Shown one piece after another: positions 5,405 through 63,690 of a stretch of DNA of 64,000 bases (position 1 is its first letter; the number at the start of each line of letters is the position of its first letter). Made by a program: the position numbers and the translations under genes. The DNA comes from Chloranthus sessilifolius (Eukaryota > Streptophyta > Magnoliopsida > Chloranthales > Chloranthaceae): assembly GCA_021018995.1 (NCBI GenBank), contig CM037587.1, forward strand, positions 87,293,251-87,357,250, read 5' to 3'. The notes beneath the pieces are model-generated. The model was given only the letters and a program-made list of their open reading frames with translations, ran no database searches and was not told the DNA's origin.

Positions 5405-5573
5405 CTATAACGCATACTCATCTCAGTATTCTACCCGTACCGTGTATTAAAGCATGACATCAATTAGATCAACTAGTCCTACAATTTTAATCTACATAGA
5501 TGAACCTTCTCTATTTTAAAAAAAAATTCAACTCATTTGACACCATGCATAATTAATCCAAACAAAGTCACAC
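5405..5573 (-). other. Candidate spliceosomal intron between gag and pol, copy A
   Basis: Gag runs into CAAG at 5577-5574 and the next bases are GTGTGA (5573 leftwards). The protease frame is restored after GTTATAG (ends 5405). The segment is 169 bases and A/T-rich. Removing it joins CAA-G|GT-ACT, giving Gln-Gly-Thr-Leu-Gln-Val-Tyr and continuous Gag-protease. Left in place, Gag ends after a short tail (TLFGLIMHGVK) at a stop inside the segment. Because 169 is not a multiple of 3, unspliced RNA also puts pol in another frame. That it is spliced is an inference. Confidence 0.65.
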
Positions 5574-15698: not shown

Positions 15699-15867
15699 CT
15701 ATAACGCATACTCATCTCAGTATTCTACCCGTACCGTGTATTAAAGCATGAAATCAATTAGATCAACTAGTCCTACAATTATAATTTACATAGATGCACC
15801 TTCTCTATTTTAAAAAAAAATTCAACTCATTTGACACCATGCATAATTAATCCAAACAAAGTCGCAC
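15699..15867 (-). other. Candidate intron between gag and pol, copy B
   Basis: The segment is 169 bases with GT at 15867 and AG at 15699, at the same codon as in A and C. Removing it joins gag to GTLQVYGRGSD in frame. The 5' site is CAAG|GTGCGA and the 3' site is GTTATAG|GT. Confidence 0.65.
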
Positions 15868-22465: not shown

Positions 22466-25400
22466 CTATTGCCCAAACAAATGGGGATACAGTTCCTTAA
22501 TTTCAGCTTCTCGCTCCCAAGTGCCTTCCTCGACCGGATGCTTACCCCACTTGACGAGCACTAATGGAATGATCTTAGTGTGTAGGGTCTGTTCCTTTCG
22601 ATCCAGAATTTGAGTTGCTTCCTCAATCATGGTCATGTCTTCATGTAGCTCAATCGGTTGACTGCCTAAAATGTGCGTGGGATCCTTTACGTACTTCCGG
22701 AGCATTGAAACGTGAAAACGTTGTGTACTCTATTAAACAATGGAGGCAACTCGATGCGATTGGCTACTTCACCGACTCGACCCAAAACATCAAATGGTCC
22801 TATGTAACGGGGACTTAGCTTCCCCCTCCTTCCGAACCTCATCACACCCCGCATGGGCGATAATGTCACAAATACGTGATCGCCAACGGCAAAATCTAGG
22901 CTTGTTCTTTTAACATCGGCATAGCTCTTTTGCCTGCTCTGAGCCGCTTTGAGCCTCTCTCTTATCATGCGTACGAACACGGCGTTATCTTCAAGAATTT
23001 TTGAACCCATGATAAATTTCACTCCGATTTCTTCCCAGTTGATAGGCGATCTGCATTGCCTTCCATAAAGAGCTTCATACGGCACCATCCCTATGCTCGC
23101 TTGAAAAGGGTTATTGTATGTAGATTCGATCAACGGTAAATGTTGATCCCACGATCCCTGTAACTCAAGCATACACGCCCTCAGCATATCTTCAATCACT
23201 TGATTTACCCGTTCTGTTTGCCCATCAGTTTCTGGATGAAACGTCAAACTAAAATCTAATCGAGTGCCCATACCTTCCTGAAACTTTTGCCAAAATTTGG
23301 AGGTATACGAGGGGTCACGATCAGATACAATGCTGCTTGGAATGTCGTGCAACCACACTATCTCCTTCATATAGAGTTCCACGAGTCCGGCGGCTGTATA
23401 CATCTTGTTGTAGGGCAAGAAGGGAGCTGACTTCGTCAGTCTATCTATGACAACCCATATAGCGTTGTGCCTCTTTGCTGTACGAGGCAACCCCACTATA
23501 AAATCCATGGAGATCGATTCCCATTTCCATTCCGGTATGGGTAGAGGCTGCAATAACCCATCAGGATGTCTATGGTTTACCTTCACCTGCTGACATGTCA
23601 AACATCTTGACACGTACTCGGCTACATCCCATTTCAGGCCTCTCCACCAATAGCTTTTTCTCATATCTTGATAAATCTTGGTGCTACCAGGATGTATCGC
23701 ATATCTAGACTTGTGTTTCTCATCTAAAATAGTCCTCCGTAGATCGGCATCGCTCGGGATACAAAGGCGTCCCCTGAACAGCAAGGAACCATCCTCCCTT
23801 ATAGAGAAATATGGTCTAGTACCTTCCGTCACTTCTCGTCGAGTCTTGACTAACTCGGAGTCTCTCATCGGCAACTCGTATATGTGTTTGAAAATTGTCG
23901 GCCTTACTAAAATATTGGCCACCAGAGCACCTGAAGCATGTACTTCAATTTTTGCATCATACAATGACAGGTCTTCAAACAATTTCCACCTGTACATTCC
24001 CATCACCAGACTAGCTAACCGAGCCGAACCCTTCCGACTCAAAGCATCTGCAACAACATTATCCTTGCCTGGGTGATATTGAATGGTGCAGTCATAGTCT
24101 TTAAGAAACTCCATCCACCTTCGCTGCCTCATGTTTAGCTCCTTCTGTGTGAACAGATATCTTAGGCTTTTGTGGTCAGTGAAGATCTCAAAAGTCTCCC
24201 CATATAAATAGTGTCTCCAGATCTTTAACGCGAATATGACCACCGCCAGTTCAAGGTCATGTGTCAGGTAATTCTTTTCGTGGTCTTTCAGCTGTCTCGA
24301 CCCATAAGCAATTACTTTCTTGTATTGGTTGAGCACATAGCCTAAACCGTTATGAGAAGCGTCACTATAAACTGTAAAACCTCCACTGCCTGTAGGAATT
24401 GCAAGTACGGGAGCTGAAGTGAGCCGCTTCTTAAGTTCTTGGAAGCTTTTCTCACACTCTTCGGTCCACTCAAATCTCACATCCATTCTTGTGAGCCTTG
24501 TTAGCAGCCCTGATACCCTTGAAAATCCCTCCACAAATCGCCTGTAATACCCAGCTAAACCAAGGAAACTGCATATATCTGTCACCGTCTTTGGTTGCTC
24601 CCATTACACTACGGCCTCGACCTTAGCTGGATCCACCGTGACACCTTCCTTTGAGATGACATGGCCCAAAAAGTTGACACTTTCTAACCAAAACTCACAC
24701 TTACTGAGCTTGGCGTATAATCGGTGTTCACACAAGGTTTGTAGAGCGATCCTTAAATGTTCTTCATGTTCTTTCTTCAACTTTGAGTATATTAGGATAT
24801 CGTCGACGAAGACTACAATGCAAGAGTCCAGGTGTGGTATAAACACCCAATTCATCAGATCCATAAACGATGGCGGCACATTTGTCAATCCAAACAGCAT
24901 CACTAAAAACTCGTAGTGTCCGTATCTCGTCCTAAAAGCAGTCTTTTGAATGTCCTCCACCTTTACCCTGAGTTGATGATATCCAGATCGCAGGTCGATC
25001 TTAGAAAAATATTATGCCCCTTGTAGCTGGTCAAACAAATCGTCGATTCTTAGCAACAGATATTTGTTCTTTATGGTGAGTTTGTTTAACTGTCGATAGT
25101 CGATGCATAGTCTCATCGACCCATCCTTCTTTTTAATGAACAAGATCGGCGCACCCCAAGGAGATACACTCGGTCTTACAAACTCCTTGTCTAAAAGTTC
25201 TTGTAGTTGTTCTTTCAATTCTTTCAACTCGGCCAATTCCATTCTATACGGTGTTTTAGAAATCGGCTTCATTCCAGGTGCCAAGGCGATAGCAAATTCC
25301 ACCTCTCTATCCGGAGGTAGTCCTAGCAATTATTTTGGAAAAACGCCTTCAAACTCACATATCATTGTGATCTCAAAAAGAACGTTCTTCCCTTCTTTGT

Positions 25401-25877: not shown

Positions 25878-26046
25878 CTATAACGCATACTCATCTCAGT
25901 ATTCTACCCGTACCGTGTATTAAAGCATGACATCAATTAGATCAACTAGTCTTATAATTTTAATCTACATAAATGCCCCTTCTCTATTTTGAAAAAAATT
26001 TCAACTCATTTGACACCATCCATAATTAATCCAAACAAAGTCGCAC
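25878..26046 (-). other. Candidate intron between gag and pol, copy C
   Basis: The segment is 169 bases, GT at 26046 and AG at 25878. It lies at the same phase-1 glycine codon as in A and B, and removing it gives QGTLQVYGRG in frame. The unspliced reading ends with TLFGLIMDGVK and a stop. Confidence 0.65.
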
Positions 26047-35997: not shown

Positions 35998-38520
35998 TGT
36001 AATATCCCAAAAAATTGAGCGTTAAACATTAACCTCAGGATCCGTGCCCGACTGGTCGTAGGTTTGACCAAGTGATGGTTAAACAATGAACTCATGGAGT
36101 GATGAACTGACATGGTGCATATGTGACCTAAGTATAGTGAATGGTATTAGTTTTGAGCTACATACACCTATCTCTGGTGTATGCGCTTAACACCGAAACG
36201 GAAGAGAGGATATAAGGGTTTAATAACCCTAGAATCCTTTGTTTTGGTTGGTGAAGGATTTAAGAAGAGAGAGAGAGGGAGAAAATAAGAGGAGTTATTG
36301 AGGTAGGAGTGAATGCAAATCAAGGGCTGATTAGAGTATTTAATGTCGGATTTCAACGCATGAGGAGTCGTTGAAGCAAAAAGCTGGAGCCCTAGCCATT
36401 CCAACCTAGATATTGATCAATTTGAGATTGATTGAAGGTGAGTTTCTAATTGAAGTAAATGTATAGATTATAGGTGATTAAAATCAGTCAAATGTAGCTA
36501 AAGGATATATTACAGGCTTAGAAAAAAGGAAGGAAAAAGAAAAGGAAAAGATTTGGAAGAACAGCCGAAAGGGGGTTGAATCTGGCTAAATCGATTAATC
36601 AAAATCGAGGGTCAATTAATCGATTTTGGTCTAGAAGTTGAAAAGTTAGGGATGCCCGATTTCGATTAATCGATTTGGAAATCGATTAATCAATGTTGAA
36701 GGTTGATTAATCGATTTAGAAATCGACTAATCGACTGGGTACCACCAGTGGCTGGAGAAACAAGACCTGGAGAAGTCGACTAATCGAGTTGGGAAATCGA
36801 TTAATCGATTTTAGATTTCGATTAATCGATTTGGGATCGACTAATCAATTTCGGACTTTCGACCACTCGATTTGAGAATCGACTTTACTATGTTAAGGAT
36901 TTCGATTAATCGATTTGGGATCGATTAATCGATTTTGGATCTCGATTAATCGATTTTGGGAATCAATTAATCGATTTTGGCAGTTTCAATTGACTTTCTA
37001 GTTTGACCTTGAGATTCATGGAGGGTCTAGGACCTTCTTTATTGCATCTTTAGTGATGTATTGCATATATTGCGATGTACCATAGGTGGTACGTGTGAAA
37101 GCAAGCACAAGGAGTCGCGTGGGACCTTGAGGCTTGTACCTTCGGAGACCTGAGGTAGGGAATACCTTGAACATGTATTTTAATTGTAAGAGCATGTATG
37201 TAGTGATATAGAACTCAAACTGAAAATGTTTTAATTGTATAAATCTTTGAGAAAAGGGTGCATGTGTGACACCAAGAATGTGATAAAGGCATCTGTGTAA
37301 TGCGAGTAACTGAGACCAAGAAATCAAATGAGAATGAGACATCCCCAGGAGATGAGAAAGTAATAAAGGCATTAGTGTGATGCGAGTAAATTAGACATCC
37401 CAAGGATGTAAATATGATTGAATAACTACTGTTGAGGCCTAACTGATATAAGATAGTACTTTACACGGTGAACAACTATATGTAAAGCACATGTTATTTT
37501 TGTTATTTGAGGTTTGATTAGAATACCCCACCGACGTGGCGGGATACCCACGACTGACTCGGCAGGATATCGGTGACCGGTACGGCGGCCAATCCATATA
37601 CCAGTGCAGAGGTCTATCCGTACACAGTAAGCACATCCCAGGGATGTTGAGATGAGATTTAACCCCGTCGCTTATTGAAAAAGGGGCTTGGGTAGTATTC
37701 TCAGGGAATACATATAACAACTGTCTATTTAGGCGACGATGGTGGGTATTCCATCGGGACTCGATGCTATATTGCTCGTGGATTACTTAAGTTGAAGATT
37801 TAAGTTTTTGCTTTAGGCCTGTTCAGTGTCATTCATGATAAATCAACAGTAAAGTAAGACATGCAAATTACCAGTAAACTTGAATGTAAATTACCATCTT
37901 TTAAACTATTTTCTAGCAAATGCATAGACATATCATGCTTTGAATATCATGGAATATATGTGAGATTTTGACATATATGTTCATTGTGTTGTTCCCTATT
38001 GAGCTAGGATGTAGCTCACCCTTTAGACTATACGTCGCAGGTCCATTGTTAGCAGTGGCCGAGGCTTCGAGAGACGTAGATCCGGGTGATTTGGATTACG
38101 TGCCTGGGGACGAGTTGGAGCCTCCTCCCGAGGACTTCTTCTAGGAGACTCTACTGAGTACTTTGAGAGAGTTTTTGTGAGCATATAGGTACGGCTTGGT
38201 ATGTCAAGCCTTTATTTTGGATAATCAATGTAATTCTACTTCGAATATTTTTTTTGGCGAACCATTTGGGGTGACCTGGTTTTATCACCGATGGTTCGGG
38301 CATGTTCTTGTGTCCATACATTGGTATGGAATGAGAACTGCTTTTAAGCTCTTTCATTTAGAGGGTAATATATTATTAATGCATGTTTTTCTTTCAGTTT
38401 ATATACCTTACTTGTTTGGTTTTGGCTTGTTATACCAATGTTTCATATACAGTTTTAGGGCACAATCTGGAGGATCGTGCTGATGGCACAAGTTTCGGGG
38501 TGCTGAAATCTGGGCTGTCA
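35998..38520 (+). repeat. 5' LTR of Tekay element D
   Basis: The 2523-base LTR begins tgtaatatccc and ends gggctgtca, four bases before the primer site. The five bases before it (cttat, 35993-35997) are one copy of the target duplication; the other was lost with the 3' half. Palindromes acatcccaaggatgt (37395-37409) and acatcccagggatgt (37633-37647) are 238 bases apart. The TCGATTAATCGA belt is at 36590-36985. A possible TATA (gatataaggg) is near 36209. Solo LTRs G and I belong to the same family. Confidence 0.9.
36590..36985. repeat. TCGATTAATCGA palindrome belt in LTR D
   Basis: At least twelve copies of aatcgattaatcgatt-like motifs occur, including the tight cluster at 36900-36980. The belt is 0.59-0.99 kb from the LTR 5' end. 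Confidence 0.88.
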
Positions 38521-38524
38521 CTGT

Positions 38525-38536
38525 TGGTATCAGAGC
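38525..38536 (+). other. Primer binding site of element D
   Basis: The sequence tggtatcagagc is an exact match to the complement of the tRNA-iMet 3' end, four bases after the LTR. Confidence 0.9.
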
Positions 38537-38624: not shown

Positions 38625-40001
38625 ATGTTTCCTAGAGGAAGGGGCCGACCCAGGGACAGTCATCATAGAAATTTATGTAGTCGAGATGATCTCATCTTGG
38701 ATACCAATAGAGTACCTTTGGGACATGGAGGTGCTTCAAGTAGTGGCAGTCAAGAGGGCCACGGACAGGGAGAGAACCAAGATCGAGATCGTCAAGATCA
38801 AGATCAGAGAGACCAGGAGAGAGTCAGAGAAAGAAACAAGGATAAAGAGGAGCGTCAGAGGATGATGCACACCAGCTATGGCCCAAGGCGAAAGATCCTT
38901 GGCGACTCATCGCCAGAGCAAGATCACCACCGACACCTCCAGTGGCTCCGACACCGCCAGTGTCTTCTGCTTTTATTGAGTTTAGGAGGATGAGACCTCC
39001 TAGCTTTTCAGGTCAGGCAAAACCCATGGCAACCAAGAACAGGCTGAGTGAGATGGAGAAGGTGTTTAGTGTGCTCACTTGTCCGAAAGATGAGAGCGTC
39101 CGTTGGGCAGCTTATATGTTGGATGGAGAGGCTGGGCCTTGGTGGAAGTCCGTTTCACGGACTAGGGATCAGGAGACTCCAGATATGCCATGGACTTAGA
39201 ATGAGTTCGTGGAGGAATTCAACAAACAGTACTTTCCAGAAGTGGTAGGAAACCAAATGGAGATTCAATTTCTACAGCTTGTTCAAGGGAAGATGACTAT
39301 TAGGGAGTATGGAGTGGAGTTCATGCGACTCGCTTGCTTCACGCCTGACTACGTCATCACGGAGATGATGAGAGCAAAGAGGTTTCAGCAAGGGTTGAGA
39401 CCGGACGTGAGGGGAGGAGTAGTACCATTCCAACTGAGGACCTATGGAGAGGTCATGAGAAAGGCCTTGGTGGTAGAGGAAGAAAATAATAACAAATACC
39501 GCCAGAGGGAGCAGCAAGGAAGGTGGATTGTGGACCAAAGTAGGACAGAAAACTATGAATCGTTGAACAAAAAGCCGAGATTCGTAGCAAACAATCAGAA
39601 ACCACCGTTCCAAGGAGGTTATGGGAGACTGGCCCAACAGACCAACCAGCAGAAATTTCCATTGCTTGCGTCAGGAAGGCCGATGAGATATGAGAGCCCT
39701 GCTATCACTACCGGAGCTACAGTTACACAAGGTTTCTCGCGAGCAGCTTCTTCCACACCACGGGAGACTTGTGCCAAGTGTGGCAAGTCTCATAGGACAG
39801 CGGACTGTAGACAAGGAACTCGGGATTGTTTTCGATGTGGCAAGGTGGGCCACCTGATTAAAGATTACCCCGAGGTGAACAAAGGGAAGACGGCTTCAGC
39901 CCCTATGCCCCGACCGATACAAGCAAGGAAGCCGATCGTCCAAGGGAGAGCCTACGCAGTCACAGCTCAAGAGGCTCAGAATACAAATGACGTGATTCAA
40001 G
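38625..40001 (+). pseudogene. gag of element D
   Basis: The start is the ATG at 38625 (MFPRGRGRPRDS), about 90 bases after the primer site. A charged Arg/Asp/Gln-rich N-terminus is followed by a frame change near 38930. The capsid region then reads FIEFRRMRPPSFSGQ, EAGPWWKSVSRTRDQ, a stop at 39197-39199 (TGG to TAG) and EFVEEFNKQYFPEVV. The 270-codon open stretch 39209-40021 contains MTIREYGVEFMRLA and two zinc knuckles. The first, CAKCGKSHRTADC, is complete; the second, CFRCGKVGHLIKDY, has its last Cys changed to Tyr. The reading ends at a TAA inside the candidate intron (QGEFSFK). It is the structural particle protein, broken here. Confidence 0.88.
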
Positions 40002-40148
40002 GTGAGTTTTCTTTTAAATAAAGAATTTCAATTCTTGAAAATTTTTAGATAGAGAAGGTGCATCCATATAAAAAATATAAGAGAACTTGCATGTAATAAA
40101 TTCTAGTATGATGATAGACATTATATATATATGTGTATGTATGATTAG
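40002..40148 (+). other. Candidate intron between gag and pol, element D
   Basis: The segment is 147 bases with ends CAAG|GTGAGT and GATTAG|GG, a near-consensus plant donor and an acceptor in an A/T-rich context. Removing it joins CAA-G|GG-ACA, giving Gln-Gly-Thr-Leu-Gln-Ile-Tyr and continuous Gag-protease in frame, at the same codon as in the minus-strand copies. If kept, an in-frame TAA ends Gag after eight further codons. A block around atagagaaggtgcatc is shared with the 169-base version, so the segments are homologous. Confidence 0.75.
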
Positions 40149-42163
40149 GGACATTACAAATTTATAAGAAGGGAAGCGACGTGACATACGAAGCTCGAGT
40201 GTTGATAGGCCTGGGGTCTATCCACTCATTTGTTACCCCTCGCTTCACAAAAAGGATGAAAGTCAACCCAGAGGAGTTAGACTTCGTTTTAACTGTGACT
40301 GTTCCTACTGGGAAATCGGTTGATGCCGAAAAGGGTTACAACTTCGTGATCGTGAGAGTCATGGATGGAGATGTCTTTGAACTATCGGCGAACCTAATCC
40401 TGTTAGACATGCAAGGATTCGACGTGATCCTTGGCATGGATTGGTTGTCGACTCACTGTGCGACGGTAGATTGCAAGAATAAGGTCGTCATCTTCAGACC
40501 CAATATAAGGAGATCGTTCTGATTTCGAAGAGAAAGGTCGATGCACATGCCACTTATCTCGGCAGTCAGGCCCAAGCGATTGATCAGAAAAGAGTGTAGT
40601 GGATACTTAGCATTTTTTGAAGGAGCATAAAGAGGAGAAGAATGTTATCTCTAAGATAGCAGTTGTGCAAGACTTCACCGATGTATTTCTAGAGGAGTTA
40701 CCCGGATTACCTCCAGAGAGAAGTAGAATTCGTTATCGACTTAGCACCAGGAACAGAGCCTGTGTCTAAAGTACCATATAGAATGGCTCCTACTGAGTTG
40801 AAGGAATTGAAGGAGTAGTTACAAGAGCTAATGGACAAGGGGTTTGTTAGACCGAGCGTGTCTCCATGGGGAGCACCTGTCTTGTTTGTAAAGAAGAAAG
40901 ATGGGTCAATGCATCTGTGGATTGACTATCGGCAATTGAACAAACTTACAATTAAGAATCGATACCCTTTGCCTAAGATAGATAACCTGTTTGATCAGCT
41001 GCAAGGCACAAGATATTTCTCCAAGATCGATCTGAGGTTTAGATACCATCAGTTGAGAGTCAAGGCAGAGGATATTTAGAAGACTGCATTCAGGACTCGA
41101 TACGGACACTATGAATTCCTAGTGATGCCGTTTGGGTTGACAAATGCCCTGGCGTCATTCATGGATCTGATGAATAGGGTGTTTAAACCACACCTAGACT
41201 CATGTGTCATAGTGTTTGTTGACGACATCCTGATCTATTCCAAATCAGAAGAAGAGCATGAGAAGCACTTGAGAATCACCCTACAGACTCTACGTGAACA
41301 CCAACTGTATGCCAAGCTCAGCAAGTGCGAGTTTTGGTTAGAAGAGGTTAGCTTTTAGGACATGTTGTCTCAAAGCTTGGTGTCACTGTAGATCCAACAA
41401 AAATTGAAGTAGTGGTGAATTGGGAGCAACCAAAGACCATGACCAACATCCGTAGTTTCCTTGGATTAGCGGGTTACTATCGACGTTTTGTTGAGGGGTT
41501 TTCAAAGATATCAGAACCTCTCACGAGACTTACACGGAAAGATGCAAGGTTCGAATAGAGTGAGGTATGCGAGAAGAGTTTTCAAGAACTCAAGAAGAGA
41601 CTCACTGCAGCTCTAGTACTTGCGATTCCTTCAGGTAGTGGAGGATTCACAGTATACAGCAATGCTTCGTATAGTGGTTTGGGCTGCGTGCTTAATCAAC
41701 ACAGAAAGGTGATAGCGTATGGATCGAGATAGTTGAAAGAGCATGAGAAGAATTATCCGACACATGACCTGAAATTAGCAGTGGTCATTTTTGCGCTAAA
41801 GATTTGGAGACATTACCTGTACGGTGAGACCTTTGAGATCTTCACCGATCATAAAAGTCTCAGATATTTGTTTACATAGAAGAAACTAAACATGAGGCAG
41901 CGCAGATGGATGGAGTTCCTCACGGACTATGACTGTTCTATACAGTACCATCCAGGCAAGGCTAATGTAGTGGCCGATGCCTTGAGTCGGAAGGGTTCAG
42001 CTCAATTGGCTAGTTTAATTTTGGGTATGCACCGATGAAAGTTGTTTGAAGATCTAGCTCTATATGATGCGAACATCGAGTCGCGAGCTACAGGAGCCTT
42101 CTTGGCTAATATATCAATGAGACCGGTGATATTTGAACATATCTACGAGCTACAGATGAAAGA
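40149..42163 (+). pseudogene. pol of element D, truncated in early integrase
   Basis: Protease 40149-40560 reads ARVLIGLGSIHSFV, so the catalytic Asp of DPGS is Gly, and LGMDWLSTH. RT 40690-41430 has [35 protein letters not shown] and [13 protein letters not shown]. RNase H 41500-42000 has VYSNASYSGLG (Asp to Asn), [26 protein letters not shown] and DALSRKGSA. Then only the start of integrase remains (IFEHIYELQMKD, ends 42163). Stops at 40818, 41078, 41557, 41730, 41878 and 42037 are all explained by CAG-to-TAG, TGG-to-TAG or TGG-to-TGA, and a one-base loss lies near 41357. The 3' half and 3' LTR are missing. Confidence 0.88.
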
Positions 42164-42685
42164 CGATTTTTTTTTTCAGGTTCGATTTTTTTTTTTTTTT
42201 TCTGAAACCAACATTAAAACCGAACCCGAAACCGATTCGGTTTGGTGTGGGCATTTTACCTACTTTAATTAATTTTTTAATGTATTTTTTCAGTTTTTTC
42301 ATTTTTTTTTTTTTTTACACATCCTACTCCCACGATTTTCAGTTTTTTCCACCCTAAACCGAATCCGAACTGAATTGCACTTCGTTTCGATTTCAGTCAG
42401 TTTTCAGTGCGATTCAGTCCGATTCATGACCCTTGGTTTTCGGTTCGGTTTCGGTGTTCGGTTCAAAGCATGCATCCCTAAATAGATAGAATTAGAGGGG
42501 CACTATAATCCAAATGTACTTAATTACACAGCAAGTATTTAGTTAAAGGTTAATAGCAACTACAAAACAAGTATTTAGCCAACGGTTATTAGTAATCGCA
42601 AAACATAAAACTAGTTGCAAATTATAGATCCATCATGCATCCATAGATTTTCGTACGGGCTAACTGACTTGTTCCAGAAGAACGT
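42164..42685. other. T-rich, CGGTTCGGTT-rich insertion or breakpoint sequence
   Basis: No gene is present. Positions 42164-42320 hold long T runs. Positions 42195-42480 hold aaccgaacccgaaacc and its inverse cggttcggtttcggt, an arrangement seen in many plant hAT-type miniature elements. The right edge ends gcatgcatccctaaat. No matching left end or target duplication is seen. Positions 42484-42685 hold nothing recognised. Element D breaks off at the start of this block. Confidence 0.4.
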
Positions 42686-46065: not shown

Positions 46066-48607
46066 TGTAATATCCCAAAAATTTGAGTGTTAAACAGTGA
46101 CCTCAGGATCCGTGCCCGACTGGTCGTGGGTTTGACCAAGTGATGGTCAAACAATGAACTCATGAAGTGATAAACTTATGTGATGTAAATGTGACCTGAG
46201 TGTAGTGAAGGGTATTAGTTTAGAGCCACATACACCCATCTCTGGTGTATGCGCTTAACACCGAAATCGGAGAGAGGATATAAGGGTTTAATAACCCTAG
46301 AATCCTTTTATTTTGGTTGGTGAAGGAATTAAGAAGAGACAGAGAGGGAGTAAATAAGAGGAGATATTGAGGTAGGAGTGAAAGCAAATCAAAGGAGTGA
46401 TTAGAGCATTTAATGTCGGATTTCAACGCATGAGGAGCCGCTGAAGCAAAAGTCAGAGCCCTAGCCATTCCAACCTAGATATTGATCAATTTGAGATTGA
46501 TTGAAAGTGAGTTTCTAATTGAAGTAAATGCATAGATTGTAGATGATTTAAATTAGTCAAATGTAGCTAAAGGATAGATTAAAGACATAGAAAAAGGAAG
46601 GAAAAAAGAAAATGAATGGGTTTTAGAAGAACAGCCCGAAAGGGGGGCTGAATCTGGCCAAATCGATTAATCGAAATTGAGATTCAATTAATCGATTTTG
46701 GTCTAGAAGTTGAAAAGTCAGGAATGCCCGATTTTGATTAATCGATTTGAAAATCGATTAATCGATGTTGAAGGTTGACTAATCGATTTAGAAATCGACT
46801 AATCGACTGGGTACCTCCAATAGCTGGAGAAACAAGACTTGGGAAAATCAACTAATCGAGTTGGGAAATCGATTAATCGATTTTGGATTTCGATTAATCG
46901 ATTTGGGATCGACTAATCGATTTCGGACTTTCGACTACTCGATTCTAGAATCGATTTAACCATTCTACAAAATTCGATTAATCGATTTGGGATCGATTAA
47001 TTGATTTTGGATTTCAATTAATCAATTTGGGGTTCGATTAATCAATTTTGGGAATCGATTAATCGACTTTGGAAATTTCACTTAACTTTCTAATTTGACC
47101 TTAAGGTTCATGGAGGGTCTAGGATCTTCTCTATTGCATCTTTAGTAATGTATTGCATGTGTGGTGATGTACCATAGGTGGTACGTGTGAAAGCAAGCAC
47201 AAGGAGCCGCGTGGGACCTTGAGGCTTGGACCTTCAGAGACCTGAGGTAGGGAACACCTTGAACATGTACTTTAATTGCAAGAGCATATATGTAGTGATA
47301 TAAAGATTAAATTGAAAATGTTTTAACTGTGTAAATCTTTGTAAAAATGGGTGTGTGTGTGACACCAAGAAAGTGATAAAGGCATCAGTGTGATGCAAAT
47401 AACTAAGACCAAGTGAGATAATGAAAATGAGGCATCCCCAGGGGATGAGAAAGTGATAAAGGCATCAGTTTGATGCAAGTAATTTAGGCATCCCAGGGAT
47501 GTAAGTAAGATTGAATAACTATTGTTAATGCCTAACTGATATAAAATAATATAATTATACGGTGAACAACTATATGTAAAGCACATGTTATTTTTGTTAT
47601 TTGAGGTTTGATTAGGATACCTCACCGATGTGGCTGGATACCCACAACTGACTCGGCAGGATATCCGTAATCGGTACGGCGGCCAATCCGTATACCAGTG
47701 CGAAGGTCTTTCCGTACACAGTAAGCATATCCCAGGGATGTTGAGATGAGATTTAATCCCGCCGCCTATTGAGAAAGGGGCTTGAGTGGTATTCTCAGGG
47801 AATACTTTATAACAACTATCTATTTAGACGACGATAGAGGGTATCCCATCGGGGCTCGATGCTATATTGCTCGGGGATTACTTAAGTTGAAGATTTAAGT
47901 TTTACTTTAGGCCTGTTCAGTATCATTCATGATAAATCAACAGTAAAGTAAAACATGCAAACTACCAGTAAACTTGAATGCAAATTGCCATCTTTTAAAA
48001 CTGTTTTCTAGCAAATGCATAGACATATCATGCTTTAAATATTATGGAATATATATGAGATTTTGACTTAAATGTTCATTGTGTTGTTCCCTATTGAGCT
48101 AGGATGTAGCTCACCCTTTAGACTATACATCGCAGGTCCATTATTAACAGCGGCCGAGGCTTCGGGAGACATAGATCTAGGTGATTCGGATTACGTGCCT
48201 GAAGACGAGTTGGAGCCTCCTCCCGAGGACTTCTTCTAGGAGACTCTACTGTGTACTTTGATAGAAAGTCAATTTTGAGAGAAGATTGTACGGCTTGGTA
48301 TGTCAAGCCTTTATTTTTTGTCAAACAATGTAATTAGATAGATATAATTCTTTTGGGCGAACCATCTGGGGTGATCTGTTTATCATCGATGGTTCCGATT
48401 GGTTCTCTGTTCATGCAGTGGCATGAAAGTAGAACCGTCTTTTGCATATGCCAAATGGGCATATTGATTCTCCGCCTTATGCAGTTATTTACTTTATCTT
48501 ATTATTATTGCTTATTATACCAATATTCCATGCATAATTTTGGGGCACGGCCTGGAGGATTGTGCTGATGGCACGGGTTATGGGGTGTCAAAATCCGGGC
48601 TGTCACA
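46066..48607 (+). mobile_element. Solo LTR G, same family as LTR D
   Basis: The 2542-base segment begins tgtaatatccc and ends gggctgtcaca, with perfect duplications ATGCT (46061-46065 and 48608-48612). The uninterrupted site catgctactgtgaaaattg exists in the E 5' LTR at about 54046, confirming the insertion. Palindromes gcatcccagggatgt (47488-47502) and atatcccagggatgt (47727-47741) are 239 bases apart. The TCGATTAATCGA belt is at 46660-47072. No gene is present. Confidence 0.95.
46660..47072. repeat. TCGATTAATCGA palindrome belt in LTR G
   Basis: The motifs and position are the same as in LTR D, with more than twelve imperfect copies. It is 0.59-1.0 kb from the LTR 5' end. Confidence 0.88.
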
Positions 48608-51201: not shown

Positions 51202-52413
51202 CTAGGGCCGCTGAATAGTTGCCGAAGTCATTCTTTCATTTCCTCTTTCGGGGCAATCTTTGAGCCGATGTCCTTTCTGACCACAACCAAAACATGCACC
51301 AGATGTTCGCCTACACTCCTCATCCTTATGATATCTTCTGCATCTAACACATAATATAATCGGTATGGACGAAGAGGTGTGGGTAGTTAGTTGAACCCTT
51401 GATGCTCTGGTCGTAGGAGAATTTGAAAGGTGGAAGGGTCCCATATGAGTAGATGCAGATGGCCTTGAATACATAGTTTGAGCAGGTTGAGAGGGCACTG
51501 GCATCAAGAATCTCTGCCTCTCGTTTGTCGGCTCATAATTTCTTGACCTTCCTTGCCCCGCTATGTTATTTCTATTATGCTGCTCTCATCTCTTGTATAT
51601 GTTTTCTATGTCTCTCTCAGCAACAATCCATTTTCCAATCACTTCGGCATAGGTCTCTAGTTCGAACACGGAGACCCTATCGCGTATATCTGGCCTCAGG
51701 CCTTCTTCAAATTTACTGGCTTTCATTTCCTTTGTGGCCACTAGTTCTGGTGCGAACCTCGATAATCTTGTAAATTCAATGCCATACTCTCGTACTGTCA
51801 TACTTTCTTGCTCCAAAGTTGTAAAATCTTTCTTCAATTGATTTCTTACTTGCTTGGGAAAAAATTCTTTGTTGAATACGCAAACAAACTCCGCTCAAGT
51901 CCATGGACCGTAAGGACCCTCAACCTCTCTCTTCCTCAGTACCGACTTCCACCACGGATCGGCATCACCCTCAAGCTGGAAGGAAGCCCAACAAACTTTC
52001 TCATCTTTAGTACTATGAAGTCTCTCTAGAAGCTTTTCCATCTGATTTAACCATTTCTCAGCCTCTAATGGATCTGTCTGCCCATAGAAACTAGGAGGTC
52101 TCAACCTCCTAAAGTCCACGAAGGATGATGGCAATAGTGTAGGAGGAGGTGGTGGTGGTGGTTGTTGCTGCTAACTGACATTATTGGTGGCTAACAATGT
52201 CATCTGCTCAGTCAAAAGAGCAGTTTGTTGGGTCTGCTGAGCCATAGCAGCGGCTATGGCCTCCATAGCCCTAGCCGTCCTATCAGTCGACTCATCACAA
52301 TGACCCCTCTCCGACTCAGGAGGTGGTCTCTGATCTCTCCATGATCCAGAAGGAATCTCCTCCCCACTCCTATTCCTTTCACGACCGCCTCTAGGTCGAC
52401 TTCTTGGAGGCAT
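51202..52413 (-). pseudogene. gag of element E
   Basis: The start is the ATG at 52413 (MPPRSRPRGGRERNR). Then come TARAMEAIAAAMAQQTQQTAL, a proline run, FVDFRRLRPPSFYGQTDPLE, EGDADPWWKSVLRKREVEGP, MTVREYGIEFTRLSRFAPEL and EEGLRPDIRDRVSVFELE. The two zinc knuckles are CVRCRRYHKDEEC and CFGCGQKGHRLKDC, both with all ligands. Stops near 52172 (NVS*QQQ), 51898 (WT*AEF, Trp to TGA) and 51585 (KR*EQH) break it. The frame ends at 51202, about 25 codons after the second knuckle. It lacks the QG splice junction and protease seen in the Tekay copies. It is a structural protein that would need Pol from elsewhere. Confidence 0.85.
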
Positions 52414-52607: not shown

Positions 52608-55294
52608 TGTGACAGCCCGGATTTTTCCAACCAAAAATTTTGAGACATATTTTTTTTTCTTTAATTTTACACTAAAACTAAATAGGAAAACCCGGACCGC
52701 CGGATCGTAGATCACAATCTGATACAGAATATACTTGGTACATCCACATACATGAAGAAATCAAAGCAGATAATACATATGACATAAATAAAATCTCCAG
52801 TTCTAATATCTAACATAAGCAGTAAACTAAAACAAACCACCAGTGATGACTAACCATCACCTAACAGTGGCGTACAATAGTACCAATGTGCCAAACCTTA
52901 ACTCACCAAATCCACAAGGTACTAATTCTACGATCTCATAATAGAGTACAATACCATATGCGGAAGCTCCTTTCTTCAAGTGTGTAGTCTGGGCCCTCCT
53001 CAAACCTACACCTGTAACGTATAGTCGGGGAGAGCTAACATCTAAGTTCAGTAGAGAAAACTCAGTAGCAGTTACATCTTATCAGATAAATTCATAGATT
53101 CAATGACAATCTTCAAAGCATTTTCATATCAAAACGGTATTTGAAAAATCCTTTCAGTAATAAATTTCAAAACCAAATTTCAACCAACAATCTATGTTCA
53201 CATATTTTCATGTCAAACAGAAAGCAAAACAAATTTCTTACTTCTTATTTTCTAGGATTCGGACAAATTTGTGAATCAAGGTTAAAGTTCACATCAAGGT
53301 TCACATTCGGATTTGCAAACAATGTCGAATTTACAACAAATAACCAATATGAGACCAAAGCATCCCATGTCGCGGGAACAGAGCATCCTACGTGGAAAGA
53401 ACAAGGTTAAAACCCCAGGGACTCTACCTCTCTCTGGAGCCTCTACTCCTCTCTGCCTCAAGTTCAAAGTCCAAGTTCAAGATCAGATTCAAGTAACAAG
53501 TTCAAGTATTAAGTTCGGATTCAAGAAAGGATCGAGGTTTCAAATTCAAAGACGGATTCAGATTCAAGCTCGGAGTTCGAAATCAACGGATTTACTATTT
53601 GGACTTAGAGGTCGAATTCAAGTTCCAAATTGATGTTCAAGTTCATATTTCAAGTTCATTTTGTGGAGTTTCAAATACATAAATTCAAGTATTAGTCAAT
53701 AATGTAAAACTATTCCATTTTCAAATACAATCAAATATCAACTTCTCAAATTCATAAAATTCCAGTTCTAGTTTCAAAGAATTCAAACACTAGTTCAAAT
53801 AAGGTCAAACTTATAATTTTTCATTTTCATTCAATCGTATCAAGAAGCTATGAACCAAATTCACAAAATATAAATATACTCTGAGTTTCCCCTACCTTAA
53901 CATCGATGTTGTACGAAGCTTTATCTATGGCTTTTCACCCTCAATCTACATCACAAATATACAATATATTAAAGACCAACTCTAGTTACTAGAAACTTAG
54001 ACATCTATTAATGTTTCTCAACACGAGGCGAAAACGGACAAGTTCATGCTACTGTGAAAATTGATATAACTTCCCATAAACTTTTAACCTTTAAACATTT
54101 GAATTCATGAGTTACTCAAAACATAAAAGTTGTAGATCTCAATGTCTTCTTTCCAACGTAATAAGAATCATATCAATCGGAGTTTAGCACAAACAGTTAC
54201 GACCAAAATACCAAGACTATATTGGCACCTCAGTCAAAACGTTCCAACCTAGAACTTGATGTAACTTCCCTCTAAAATTTGGCCTTTAAAACATTTGATT
54301 TATCAATATTTATATTCATAAACATTGTAGGTCTCGTTGTCCTTTTTCCAATGCCTTAAGAATCATAAGATTTTGAGTTCGGGATAAAATGTTATGACTA
54401 AAACACTAAAGCACTATCAACAAGCACAGTCAAATTCGATCGATCGAATTTTCAATTCGATTGATCGAATTTCATTTCGATTGATCGAATTTCATTTTGA
54501 TTGATCGAATTTCAATTCGATTGATCAAAATTTCATAAAAATCGTATTTCATCATCTCTTGTCAATTTCGATCAATCGAAAATTGACAGATTTCACCATT
54601 CTTGATGGTTTATGTTTCAAAACCCATTTTTTTTCAAATCTTAACTCATTTCTTCCCATTCTTCACCCATAAATATAAATCAAACTAACTCAACTATAAA
54701 TCATAATTTAGTACAATTTCCATACCTTAAATTGATCGATTCCTCGATCCACGAGCTCACGTACACACTAGGGTTTCGGAGTGAATTTTGTTGATGTCTC
54801 CGGCGTTTGAATCTAAATGAAGCCTACGATTGTGCTCCGCTCCAACATGCACTACACTTTACTCTTCCTATCACGTATATTGTGATCACAATGGTTGGCT
54901 CTCTCTCTCTCTCTCTATTTTTAACCCATACACTCAAATCTCTAAAAATCTCATTGACATCGGAATCCAATGGCTTCTCTAGAACCCAAAAATAATTTGT
55001 TTAATCATTAATAAACTTTCATTCCCTCTCTAGAACCCAAAAATTATAAGAGATATAAAGTCTCTTAGGCTTAATACACTTTTGTTAAGTCTGGTTTCGG
55101 CGTTAAGCACATACGCCGCAACTAGGTGTATCGAAACTCATTCAAAGTTTCATGCATAACTTTAATCCTTCTGATTTGTACTTAACACAACCTAATATGA
55201 CTTATCAATTATTTTCATAGGGTCGAGTATGTGACCAATCGGGCACGCACACCGAGGCACACTATTCAAAGGTCAAAATTTTCAAGATATTACA
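52608..55294 (-). repeat. 5' LTR of element E, promoter region deleted
   Basis: The 2687-base LTR begins tgtgacagcccgg and ends agatattaca. Relative to the 3' LTR about 545 bases are missing at about 54979 (equivalent to about 49519-50063), which removes the TATA box. GTTCAA-type repeats lie at 53455-53660, a CT run at 54900-54922 and the palindrome belt (ttcgattgatcgaa type) at 54430-54585. Confidence 0.85.
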
Positions 55295-60056: not shown

Positions 60057-62549
60057 TGTGACAGCCGGAATTTCGACACCCCGAAACTCGTGCCATCAGC
60101 ACGATCTTCCAGGCCGTGCCCCAAGGTTATGTACGAAATATTGGTATAACAAGTAATACTAAAAAGGTAAAGCAATTAACTGCATAAAGCAAAACAATCA
60201 ATATGCCCATCTAGCACATACAAAAGATAGTTCTACTTTCATGCTACTGTATGAATAGAGAACCGATCTAAACCATCGGTGATAAACAGATCACCCCAGA
60301 TGGTTCGCCCAAAAGAATTATATCTATCTAATTACATGGTTTATCAAAATAAAGGCTTGACATACCAAGCCGTACAATATGCTCTCAAAACTGACTCTCT
60401 ATCAAAGTACACAGCAGAGTCTCCTAGAAGAAGTCCTCGGGAGGAGGCTCCAACTCGTCCCCATGCACATAATCTGAATCACCCAGATCTACGTCTCCCA
60501 AAGCCCCGGCCGTTGCTAATAATAGACCTGCGACATATAGTCTAAAAGGTGAGCTACATCTTACCTCAATAGGAAACAATACAATAAATATATAAGTCAA
60601 AATCTCACATATATTCCATGATATTCTAAGCATGATGTATCTATGCACTTGCTGGAAAAATGGTTTAAAAGATGGTAGTTTGCATTCAAATTTACTGGCA
60701 GTTCTCTTGTTTTACTTTACTATTAATTTATCATGAATGACACTGAACAGGCCTAAAGCAAAACTTAAATCTTCAACTTAAATAATCCTTGAGCAATATA
60801 GCATCGAGCCCCGATGGGATACCCTCCATCGTCGTCTAAATAGACAGTAGTTATATGTATTCCATGGGAATACGACACAAGCCCCTTTCTCAATAGGCGG
60901 CGGGGTTAAATCTCATATCAACATTCCTGAGATGTGCTTGCTATGTACGGATAGACCTCCGCACTGGTATACGGATTGGTCGCCTTACCGGTTACGGATA
61001 TCTTGTCGAGTCAGTCGTGGGTATCCCGCCACGTCGGTGGGGTATCCTAACAAATCTCAAATAACAAAAATAACATGTGCTTTACATATAGTTATTCACC
61101 GTGTAAATGTGTTATCTTATATCAGTTAAACCTTAACAGTAGTCATTCAATCATACTTACATCCCTGGGATGTCTAAATTACTCGCATCACACTGATGCC
61201 TTTTGTTACTTTCTCATCTCCTGGGGATATCTCATTCTCATTTGATTACTTGGTCTCAGTTACTCGCATCACACAGATGCCTTTATCACTTTCTTGGTAT
61301 CACACACGCACCATTTTTACAAATATTTACATAGTTAAAATATTTTCAGTTTGAGTTCTATATCACTACATGCATGCTCTTGCAATTAAAGTACATATTT
61401 AAGGTGTTCCCTACCTCAAGTTTATGAAGATCCAAGCATCAAGGTCCCACGTGGCTCCTTATGCTTGCTTTCATACGTACCACCTATGGTACATCATAAC
61501 ACATGCAACAAATCACTAAAGATGCAATAGAGAAGGTTCTAGACCCTCCATGAACCTCAAGGTCAAATTAGAAAGTTAAATGAAGCTGCCAAAATCGATT
61601 AATCGATTCCCAAAATCGATTAATCGAAATCCAAAATCGATTAATCGAAATCCCTAAAATGGTAAAGTCGATTTTCAAATCGAGTAGTCGAAAATCCGAA
61701 ATCGATTAGTCGATCCCAAATCGATTAATCAAAATCCAAAATCAATTAATCGATTTCCCAAGTCGATTAGTCGATTTCCCCAAGTCCTTTCTCTCCAGCC
61801 ACTAGAGGTACCCAGTCGATTAGTCGATTTCTAAATTGATTAATCGACCTTCAAAATCGATTAATCGATTTCCAAATCGATTAATTGAAATCGGGCATTC
61901 TTGACTTTTCAACTTCTAGACCAAAATCGATTAATCGATTCTCAAAATCGATTAATCGATTTTGCCAGATTCAGCCCCTTTTCAAACTATTCTACCAAAT
62001 CTTTTCTTATCAATTTTTCTTTCTTTTATAGGTCTTTAATCTATCATTCTAACTATGCGTGACTAAATTAAACTCATCAAATCTTTATGTATTGAAATCT
62101 AATAAAACTTACTTCAATAAAACCCTTAAAAGATTGATTTATTGGGTTTGATGGCTAGGGTTCCAGCTTTTCGCTTCAACGATCCCAATCGCGTTGAATC
62201 CGGCAATAAATGCTCAATCTTCCTTCCAATCCAACCACAATAACTCCTTGGTATTAATTTCCTTCTCTCTCTCTCCCTTCTTAACTCTTTCTTCAACAAC
62301 CAAACAAAAGAATTCTAGGGTTATTAAACCCTTATATCCTCTCTCCTGTTTCGGTGTTAAGCGCATACACCAGAGATAGGTATATGTGGCTCTAAACTAA
62401 CACCATACTCTACACTTATGTCACACTAATTTTACATTAGTACATAACTTCATGAGTCTGTTGTTTGACCATCACTTGGTCAAACCTACGACCAGTCGGG
62501 CACGAATCCCGAGGTCACTGTTTGACGCTCAAATTTTCGGGATATTATA
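60057..62549 (-). mobile_element. Solo LTR I, same family as LTRs D and G
   Basis: The 2493-base segment begins tgtgacagccgg and ends cgggatattata (terminal CA changed to TA). Perfect 5-base duplications AAAAG lie at 60052-60056 and 62550-62554. It is in the opposite orientation to D and G. Palindromes acattcctgagatgt (60921-60935) and acatccctgggatgt (61159-61173) are 238 bases apart. The TCGATTAATCGA belt is at 61590-61965. No gene is present. Confidence 0.93.
61590..61965. repeat. TCGATTAATCGA palindrome belt in LTR I
   Basis: Many copies of aaaatcgattaatcgat-like motifs occur, spaced about 20-30 bases. The belt is 0.58-0.96 kb from the LTR 5' end. Confidence 0.88.
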
Positions 62550-62554
62550 AAAAG

Positions 62555-63690
62555 TCAAACTTTGATCAAACTTAAAATTTTAATCAATAAAAAAATATAA
62601 AGCTAAATAATAAAATTGTAAATGCTAGTATACGTTAAAATTAAATTTAATTTTTACAAAAGTCAAACTTTGACCAAACTTTTAACTTTGACTAAGAGAA
62701 AATTTTGCAATGTGCCAAGTTACAAAAGTCCAAGTGTAAATTAACATAACAGTATTCATATACATCCTTAGGTTATACCAGTCAAAATTTAATCAAATAT
62801 CCACTTTTAATAAAACTCAAACTTTGACCAAATGTAAAATTTTGATTAATAAAAAAATTTAAAACTAAAGTACAAAGTTACATAGTAAATGCTAATATTT
62901 ACTATAAGGTTATATGTTGAAAGAAAATTCAATTTTTAAACTTGAAAGAAAATACAAATTTTAAAAAAAGTCAAACTTTGATCATTTTTTATAACTTTGA
63001 CCAATTGAAAATTCGACAATGTACCACCAAGCTACAAATTAACATAACATTATTCATATCTATTGTTAGGTTACACTAGTAAAAAGTTTGACCAAATATC
63101 AACTTTTAAAAAGTCAAACTTTGACCAAATGTCAAAAAAAGTAAAATAAAATTTGGTAATATACTATCAAGTAAAATTTAAAAAATAATAATTTTATTGA
63201 AGCAACAAAAGTTTAAAATTTAAAATTGTATTAGAAAGTCAAAGTTTGACCAAATATCAAACTTTGACTGATAAAAATTTACATTACCAAAATATAAATA
63301 ACAATAGTAATAATTACTATCTACTATCTAGATACACTTATCAAATTTTGACTAACAATAAATTCGAATAAAAGTCAAACTTTGACCAATAAAAATGAGG
63401 TAATGTATATTTCAAGTTACAAATTAAAATAATGATAGATATTTTTAATTATAATATTTCACTAATAAAAATTTATAACATTTTATAAAAAATCGAACTT
63501 TGACAAAAAGTCAAACTTTGATCAAGAAAAAATTGCACTGATATGGTATAAATTTATGTTGTAGTAGACTATATCTATAAGCAAGTTTCGAGTTTGACTA
63601 AAAATAAATTTGGTGTAAAAGTCAAAGTTTGACCAACAATCAAAGTTTGACTAAAGGTCAAACTATTTTTATTTTTAATTTAATTTAATT
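62555..63690. repeat. Array of aaagtcaaactttgacc motifs (W-box-like)
   Basis: About a dozen irregularly spaced copies occur, for example at 62665, 62810, 62965, 63112, 63235, 63374, 63505 and 63617. They are separated by A/T-rich spacers. Each contains gtcaaa and tttgac facing each other, so the TTGAC core of WRKY binding sites appears on both strands. No gene is seen. Confidence 0.75.

Follow-up and report, generated by a model that had tools for sequence, protein, structure and literature searches.

A predicted spliceosomal intron separating gag from protease in a chromovirus-like retrotransposon group of Chloranthus sessilifolius

How plant long terminal repeat (LTR) retrotransposons with a single frame produce Gag in excess of Pol remains an open question. 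Most plant LTR groups are of this single-frame kind, and Ogre and Bianca are the groups named with separated frames (in the part of PMC6317226 on these groups). Copy D, an element in a 64,000-nucleotide (nt) stretch of Chloranthus sessilifolius DNA (GenBank assembly GCA_021018995.1, contig CM037587.1, positions 87,293,251 to 87,357,250, forward strand; hereafter the window), raises the question in a particular form, in that 147 nt with the ends of an intron stand between its gag and its pol. We consider it very probable that this segment is a spliceosomal intron at the gag-protease boundary, which would stay in genomic RNA and be spliced out of part of the mRNA to give Gag-Pol. The host is a chromovirus-like Ty3/gypsy group of great abundance, matched at thousands of places in this one genome and probably Tekay (a clade name assigned provisionally from the long LTRs and the primer binding site), and for such a group an intron would answer the question.

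The gag-protease junction of copy D

The features concerned are as follows (+ and - are strands of the window).
39200..40021, +: gag frame of D, capsid part and CCHC zinc knuckle (Pfam Retrotrans_gag, E 7.7e-12; zf-CCHC, 0.008, under the cut-off)
40002..40148, +: putative 147-nt intron of D, in phase 1; the codon that it divides, between Gag and protease, is for Gly (sequence, alignment, composition)
40151..40522, +: protease frame of D, the start of pol, after the acceptor (Pfam RVP_2, E 1.8e-22)
5405..5573, -: homologous putative intron of copy A, 169 nt, GTGTGA...TTATAG (alignment)
15699..15867, -: homologous putative intron of copy B, 169 nt, GTGCGA...TTATAG (alignment)
25878..26046, -: homologous putative intron of copy C, 169 nt, GTGCGA...TTATAG (alignment)

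On direct reading, CAAG ends at 40001 and GTGAGT begins at 40002, while GATTAG ends at 40148 and GG begins at 40149, so that the boundaries given in the preliminary description (CAAG/GTGAGT and GATTAG/GG) are exact to the base. That description also had Gag stopping inside the segment and the removal of 147 bases restoring a continuous Q-G-T-L-Q-I-Y into protease, and both points hold: the Gag frame runs for six codons (G-E-F-S-F-K) past its last Gln codon to a TAA at 40019-40021, the protease frame opens with T-L-Q-I-Y from 40151, and the peptide across the junction without the segment reads N-D-V-I-Q followed by G-T-L-Q-I-Y, the split codon being Gly. The segments of copies A, B, and C interrupt the same codon.

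The segment has the traits of a spliceosomal GT-AG intron, namely conserved ends, richness in T and in A+T, a frame that continues across it, and no open frame inside. Its donor is the sole site matching MAG/GTRAGT at 8 or more of nine positions within 39000-42164, scoring 9, and the + strand of the entire window has only two sites that match at 9/9. The segment is also the part of 39000-42164 that is richest in AT (76.9%, the median being 55.8%), and 23 of 3019 overlapping windows of that interval reach as high a value. Compared with the adjoining 52 nt on each side, T content is 37.4% against 17.3 and 19.2%, and GC content is 23.1% against 45.2%. The three frames hold 3, 5, and 8 stops in D, and 7, 6, and 5 in A. 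The tail of D Gag matches RVP_2 positions 2-23 weakly (E 0.1), as far as the codon that immediately precedes the donor, and the match is taken up again in the protease at RVP_2 position 31; the Pfam model thus runs through the junction.

Because 147 is 3x49, Gag and Pol of D share one frame, which is what might be expected if the segment were an old non-coding spacer with a chance GT...AG and Pol were made by recoding (readthrough, frameshifting, or bypass). Recoding between gag and pol does occur in other LTR elements (cited in the part of PMC6317226 on these elements). This explanation is nevertheless extremely unlikely: every frame of the segment contains several stops, as counted above, the stretch missing from sister copies is exactly GT...AG, and the length of the segment varies among its relatives in the way described below.

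The segment across the genome

The window's own assembly (2.17 Gb, 32 contigs) was searched, and for each query the best 40 copies were scored by similarity to that query, so that the frequencies given here are biased; moreover, the queries from D and from the group of copies A-C (the ABC group) contained the segment and favor segment-bearing copies, and copies within one family are not independent. A 388-base query spanning the D junction gave 3,232 first-look places, the best 40 at 93-100% identity. In the alignment of the D family (28 of these 40, D included), GT is present in 25/28 copies and AG in 28/28. The segment is 143-151 nt long, with 145 the commonest length (13/28) and 147 found in four of the 28, D among them. 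Divided by 3, the lengths leave remainders of 0, 1, and 2 in 8, 14, and 6 copies. From the ABC query came 2,267 places; of the best 40 scored, 30, from the ABC group and a further group (grp3), were aligned, and their segments have GT in 30/30 and AG in 29/30, and are 158-183 nt long, again in all classes modulo 3. Since the lengths fall into all three classes, no single frameshift or readthrough would serve every copy. We dropped the simpler argument against recoding that sets D (147, remainder 0) against A-C (169, remainder 1), because a length of 145, with remainder 1, is the commonest among the relatives of D.

Between D and 11 copies of the ABC group, divergence at the first, second, and third codon positions is 0.206, 0.207, and 0.545 upstream of the segment and 0.213, 0.190, and 0.555 downstream, while inside the segment it is 0.455 (not split by codon position). 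This excess at third positions on both flanks indicates that both have been selected as coding sequence, in the phase in which splicing would connect them. Between the ABC group and grp3 the pattern is less marked (0.125/0.116/0.214 and 0.14/0.142/0.216, with 0.23 inside the segment).

A pattern made of the last Gag codons followed by GTGNG has 5,770 exact matches in the genome, against 5 for the control. Twelve diverse matches were taken from the chromosome 1 list, in which GT is given by the pattern; all 12 have an AT-rich stretch, an AG/G acceptor 144-184 nt on (10 found by script, two by eye), and the protease peptide. At the gag/protease codon the segment is shared by many diverged families, and its GT and AG ends are almost always kept.

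Copies that lack exactly the segment

A straight-through codon pattern, without the segment, has 18 exact matches in the genome and none in the control. Seventeen of them are gag-protease junctions of the group; the other (L096) is not a retroelement and was set aside. Five of the 17 intron-less copies were taken further: L092, L093, and L095, which lay closest to the intron-bearing families, L089, which was the first found, and L087, the outermost row of the tree described below. Among the best 40 relatives of each, the query itself included, one is contiguous across the junction for L092 (no other match crosses it), one for L093, two for L087 (the second at 86%, its junction read directly), six for L095, and nine for L089. 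The other five contiguous relatives of L095 are only 72-73% identical to it, while its nearest relatives are split at the junction into a 5' block of up to 87% and a 3' block of up to 91%. Likewise, the other eight of L089 are 75-80% identical, and its nearest relatives are split into blocks of up to 89% and up to 94%.

The intron-bearing siblings, one read per family, have segments of 147 (L087), 183 (L089), 177 (L092), 154 (L093), and 145 nt (L095), all GT...AG, and the intron-less copies of these five families are joined exactly at CAAG/G or CAGG/G. Gapped exon identity to the sibling on the two sides of the junction is 37/37 and 40/40 for L087, 34/37 and 38/40 for L089, 36/37 and 38/40 for L092, 37/38 and 38/39 for L093, and 30/34 and 38/40 for L095. 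Five families with different segments have each lost precisely GT...AG, as the reverse transcription of spliced RNA would leave them, and this is the simplest reading of the intron-less copies. The preliminary description had counted relatives with gag and pol fused in frame, without segment or splice sites, against an intron. Such fused copies do exist, 17 of them, but the closest relatives of the five followed carry the segment with its splice sites, and splicing is thereby supported.

Taken together, the GT...AG at the same codon in many families, the constrained flanks, the inner stops, the AT-richness, and the intron-less sisters in five families strongly support the proposal, made in that description, of an intron between gag and pol.

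Several observations weigh against it. The donors of A-C are weak, matching at 7/9 consensus positions, as is that of one sibling intron (GTACAA), and RVP_2 finds no match in the Gag tail of either A or C. Codon periodicity within the ABC group is weak or absent, as would be expected if the differences arose after insertion. D and the other copies read are decayed. No intron-less copy of the D family was found with the one D-specific 19-base junction pattern used, at up to two mismatches, of which one further change is what is effectively allowed since most D copies are already one base off; its 27 matches (control 10) include none that is exact or at one mismatch, and the sole retroelement among them (L042) is the same place as L089. 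Lastly, the two ends of the segment have bases in common, three of them in D, four in A, and 6, 5, 4, 3, and 5 in the siblings read from the five families.

This last point bears on how the intron-less copies arose, as a deletion of DNA or a template slippage between short end repeats of 3-6 bases would give the same product as splicing, and splicing would then be unproven. In plant LTR elements, deletions between short repeats are frequent. Yet among 38 intron-bearing loci of ~3.4 kb we found no such deletion of 90-260 nt or of 90-300 nt, with a scan that does flag L092, L093, and L095, although pairs of four-base repeats 90-260 nt apart number 2,642 per locus on average (30 of the 38 loci). 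From zero events, at most ~0.2 would be expected at one given pair among 5,770 copies, a rough bound in which all repeat pairs are treated alike, against at least five families observed. We therefore regard deletion or slippage as an unlikely source of the intron-less copies.

Recombination or gene conversion from intron-less families would likewise dispense with splicing. Contiguous relatives at 72-80% identity exist, and some rows are placed differently in gag-side and pol-side trees; near the junction L089 matches the intron-less L098 and L101 at 24-25 and 25-28 of 30 bases, against 23 and 24 of 30 for the distant intron-bearing L113, and L095 is about equally close to the intron-less L088 and to L110. 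Against closer intron-bearing siblings, however, identity does not dip at the junction (the last 34-38 and first 39-40 exon bases), and we hold this source to be very unlikely. The contiguous relatives at 72-80% may be true intron-less lineages, which would have lost the intron and still multiplied; those of L095 at 72-73% lie at C11:67718036, C4:15307288, C1:79748002, C28:370240, and C7:119540840.

Trees were built from the protease-reverse transcriptase (PR-RT) region and from gag with 22 and 21, respectively, of the 38 intron-bearing loci and the 17 intron-less rows, after removal of L084 (long branch) and, in the gag tree, of L075 (donor missed by the script). All 14 outer rows of the PR-RT tree are intron-less, but these rows had been chosen by the intron-less pattern. 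A single gain of the intron inside the group followed by later losses was considered and dropped, as the closest copies of the L089, L095, and L087 families carry a segment at the same place; with L087 being the outermost row examined, no gain is evident inside the sampled group, and the position is old. The gag-side and pol-side trees (L001-L008, L056-L085, and L086-L103) differ in whether they unite the D family with ABC, which suggests past recombination between gag and pol.

Proposed mechanism and known systems

We propose that the full-length RNA retains the intron, so that translation would end a few codons inside it and give Gag, and that the same unspliced RNA would be the form packaged and reverse transcribed. 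In a fraction of the RNA, splicing would place Gag and protease-RT-integrase in one frame, giving Gag-Pol, and the rate of splicing would thus set the Gag:Pol ratio. That unspliced RNA encodes Gag and spliced RNA Gag-Pol, we infer from the frames. Occasional packaging and reverse transcription of spliced RNA would then give the precisely intron-less copies, which could serve as a natural assay for the rate at which spliced RNA has been turned back into DNA.

It is also conceivable that the intron is real and the balance reversed, with splicing as the default and unspliced RNA rare, or that spliced RNA has another role. In favor of this, the D donor matches at 9/9, and the spliced RNA of BARE makes only Gag (in the part of PMC3735527 on BARE). 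The frames, however, join Gag to protease only after removal of the segment, and the 5,770 intron-bearing against 18 intron-less pattern matches (from patterns of unequal length) suggest that the RNA copied was mostly unspliced; we consider a reversed balance improbable.

Splicing may be kept partial by a conserved block within the intron.
40049..40064, +: conserved intronic block ATAGAGAAGGTGCATC, with the donor-like AAG/GTGCAT inside, its GT at 40058-40059 (sequence conservation)
The block lies 43-73 bases from the donor across introns, and at least 15 of its 16 bases are matched in 27/28 D, 9/11 ABC, 12/19 grp3, and 6/12 diverse copies, while the best match in 2,800 base-shuffled introns, a control that preserves single-base content only, is 13/16. 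Further donor-like sites (at least 7/9) in these 70 introns fall 50-79 bases from the donor, that is, in the block region, in 54 of 57 cases. TTTTAG precedes the block in 25/28 D, 9/17 grp3, and 7/9 diverse copies, and in 0/10 ABC copies. The block is poor or missing in 3/12 diverse, 2/19 grp3, and 1/11 ABC copies, and matches at 10-11/16 in the siblings L116, L118, and L120; in the L087 and L089 families, where a segment lies at D's position, the match to it is just 11/16 and 10/16. The core GGTGCAT is also present in the introns of L116 and L118.

The block is our best candidate for an element that may keep splicing partial by acting as a decoy. In Rous sarcoma virus, the negative regulator of splicing contains a decoy donor that keeps viral RNA partly unspliced. 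The likeness that we propose is one of role, with no homology claimed, and the function of the block here is inferred. Tentatively, one may go further and imagine a lineage-wide switch of retroviral style, in which the intron would be as old as the deepest sampled families, the decoy (TTTTAG, then ATAGAGAAG, then GTGCAT, in many families) would restrain splicing, the intron would mark the RNA to be packaged, and regulated retention would have replaced recoding; we think this possible, though on balance somewhat doubtful. If it were true, the intron-less copies would record how often spliced RNA was reverse transcribed, and that it rarely returned to the genome. If such introns are general, annotation that calls elements of this kind broken in the gag-pol frame, and hence dead, would be wrong.

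Ogre and EVADE are described as notable exceptions to a general lack of introns (2025 review, PMC12786077, in its part on introns). In Ogre, a non-chromovirus of the Tat lineage, splicing occurs between GAG-PROT and RT (PMC6317226, same part as above), in a region averaging 274 bp, whereas the intron proposed here lies between gag and protease of a chromovirus-like element, and the position is thus not that of Ogre. In BARE1, EVADE, and Tyran/Varan, which are Ty1/copia elements, splicing alters the output of Gag relative to Pol, as proposed here, but it does so by removing or breaking pol to give Gag or shortened Gag mRNAs, while here splicing would be needed for Gag-Pol (PMC3735527, PMC12786077, and PMC7730604, in their passages on these elements). 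Bianca, also Ty1/copia and hence of another superfamily, has two open reading frames (ORFs) that are 172 bp apart on average (PMC6317226), and section 13 of that paper gives no evidence of splicing for it. The sugar beet chromoviruses have the same domain order and a chromodomain, but carry gag and pol in one continuous ORF, unlike the elements here (PMC3605345, in its part on ORF structure). An intron between gag and pol of a chromovirus is not named in the intron and splicing passages of PMC7730604, PMC2864245, PMC2832683, and PMC12389642. For Tekay, no such intron was reported in the titles or the beginnings of abstracts among the matches listed, the scope being open-licence papers.

Among Ty3/gypsy elements, CRR is a chromovirus of the CRM clade. 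Like the elements here, as proposed, CRR has spliced transcripts, but its splicing removes RT and creates two ORFs (PMC3735527, in its part on CRR).

Copy D and the other elements in the window

D is a truncated element, consisting of a 5' LTR and gag/PR/RT and cut off before integrase; its homology to A-C stops at ~42164. The remaining features are as follows.
35998..38524, +: 5' LTR of D, starting TGTAATATCCC, its end placed within a few bases (sequence comparison)
38525..38536, +: primer binding site of D, TGGTATCAGAGC, presumably of the initiator-tRNA-Met type (sequence)
40819..41358, +: RT pieces of D, in a broken frame (Pfam RVT_1, 2.6e-6, under the cut-off, and 7.6e-20)
46066..48607, +: solo LTR, an independent insertion belonging to the same group (flanked on each side by ATGCT; a paralogue at ~54048 has the empty site)
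22469..22729, -: probable chromodomain, in copy C (Pfam Chromo match at E 2e-5, with 24.9 bits where the cut-off is 25.1)

The LTR at 46066-48607 was considered as the 3' LTR of D and ruled out, given ATGCT on both of its flanks and the empty site at ~54048 in a paralogous repeat. As it is a solo LTR and D is truncated, LTR-LTR divergence is unusable for dating D. The repeat that carries this solo LTR has an uninterrupted paralogue at ~52631-54979.

Copies C and D together present the order gag-PR-RT-RNase H-integrase. Copy C has RNase H, integrase, and a probable chromodomain, whose Chromo match sits behind the integrase SH3 domain in a different frame, and on these grounds we call the group chromovirus-like. 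In database searches, the gag of D had 436 candidates among proteins, with 0 at E <= 1e-3, and viral contigs queried with this gag and with the pol of copy C gave no useful match.

Copies A, B, and C lie in tandem at 2978-29901 of the window (-), with a period of ~10.2 kb and an identity of ~91-93%, an arrangement such as unequal recombination or segmental duplication would produce. The fifth element, a more distant one, has gag at 51205-51891 (-) and an LTR at ~60057-62555 (-); its Gag is ~40% identical to that of D and breaks off soon after the zinc knuckle, upstream of the junction.
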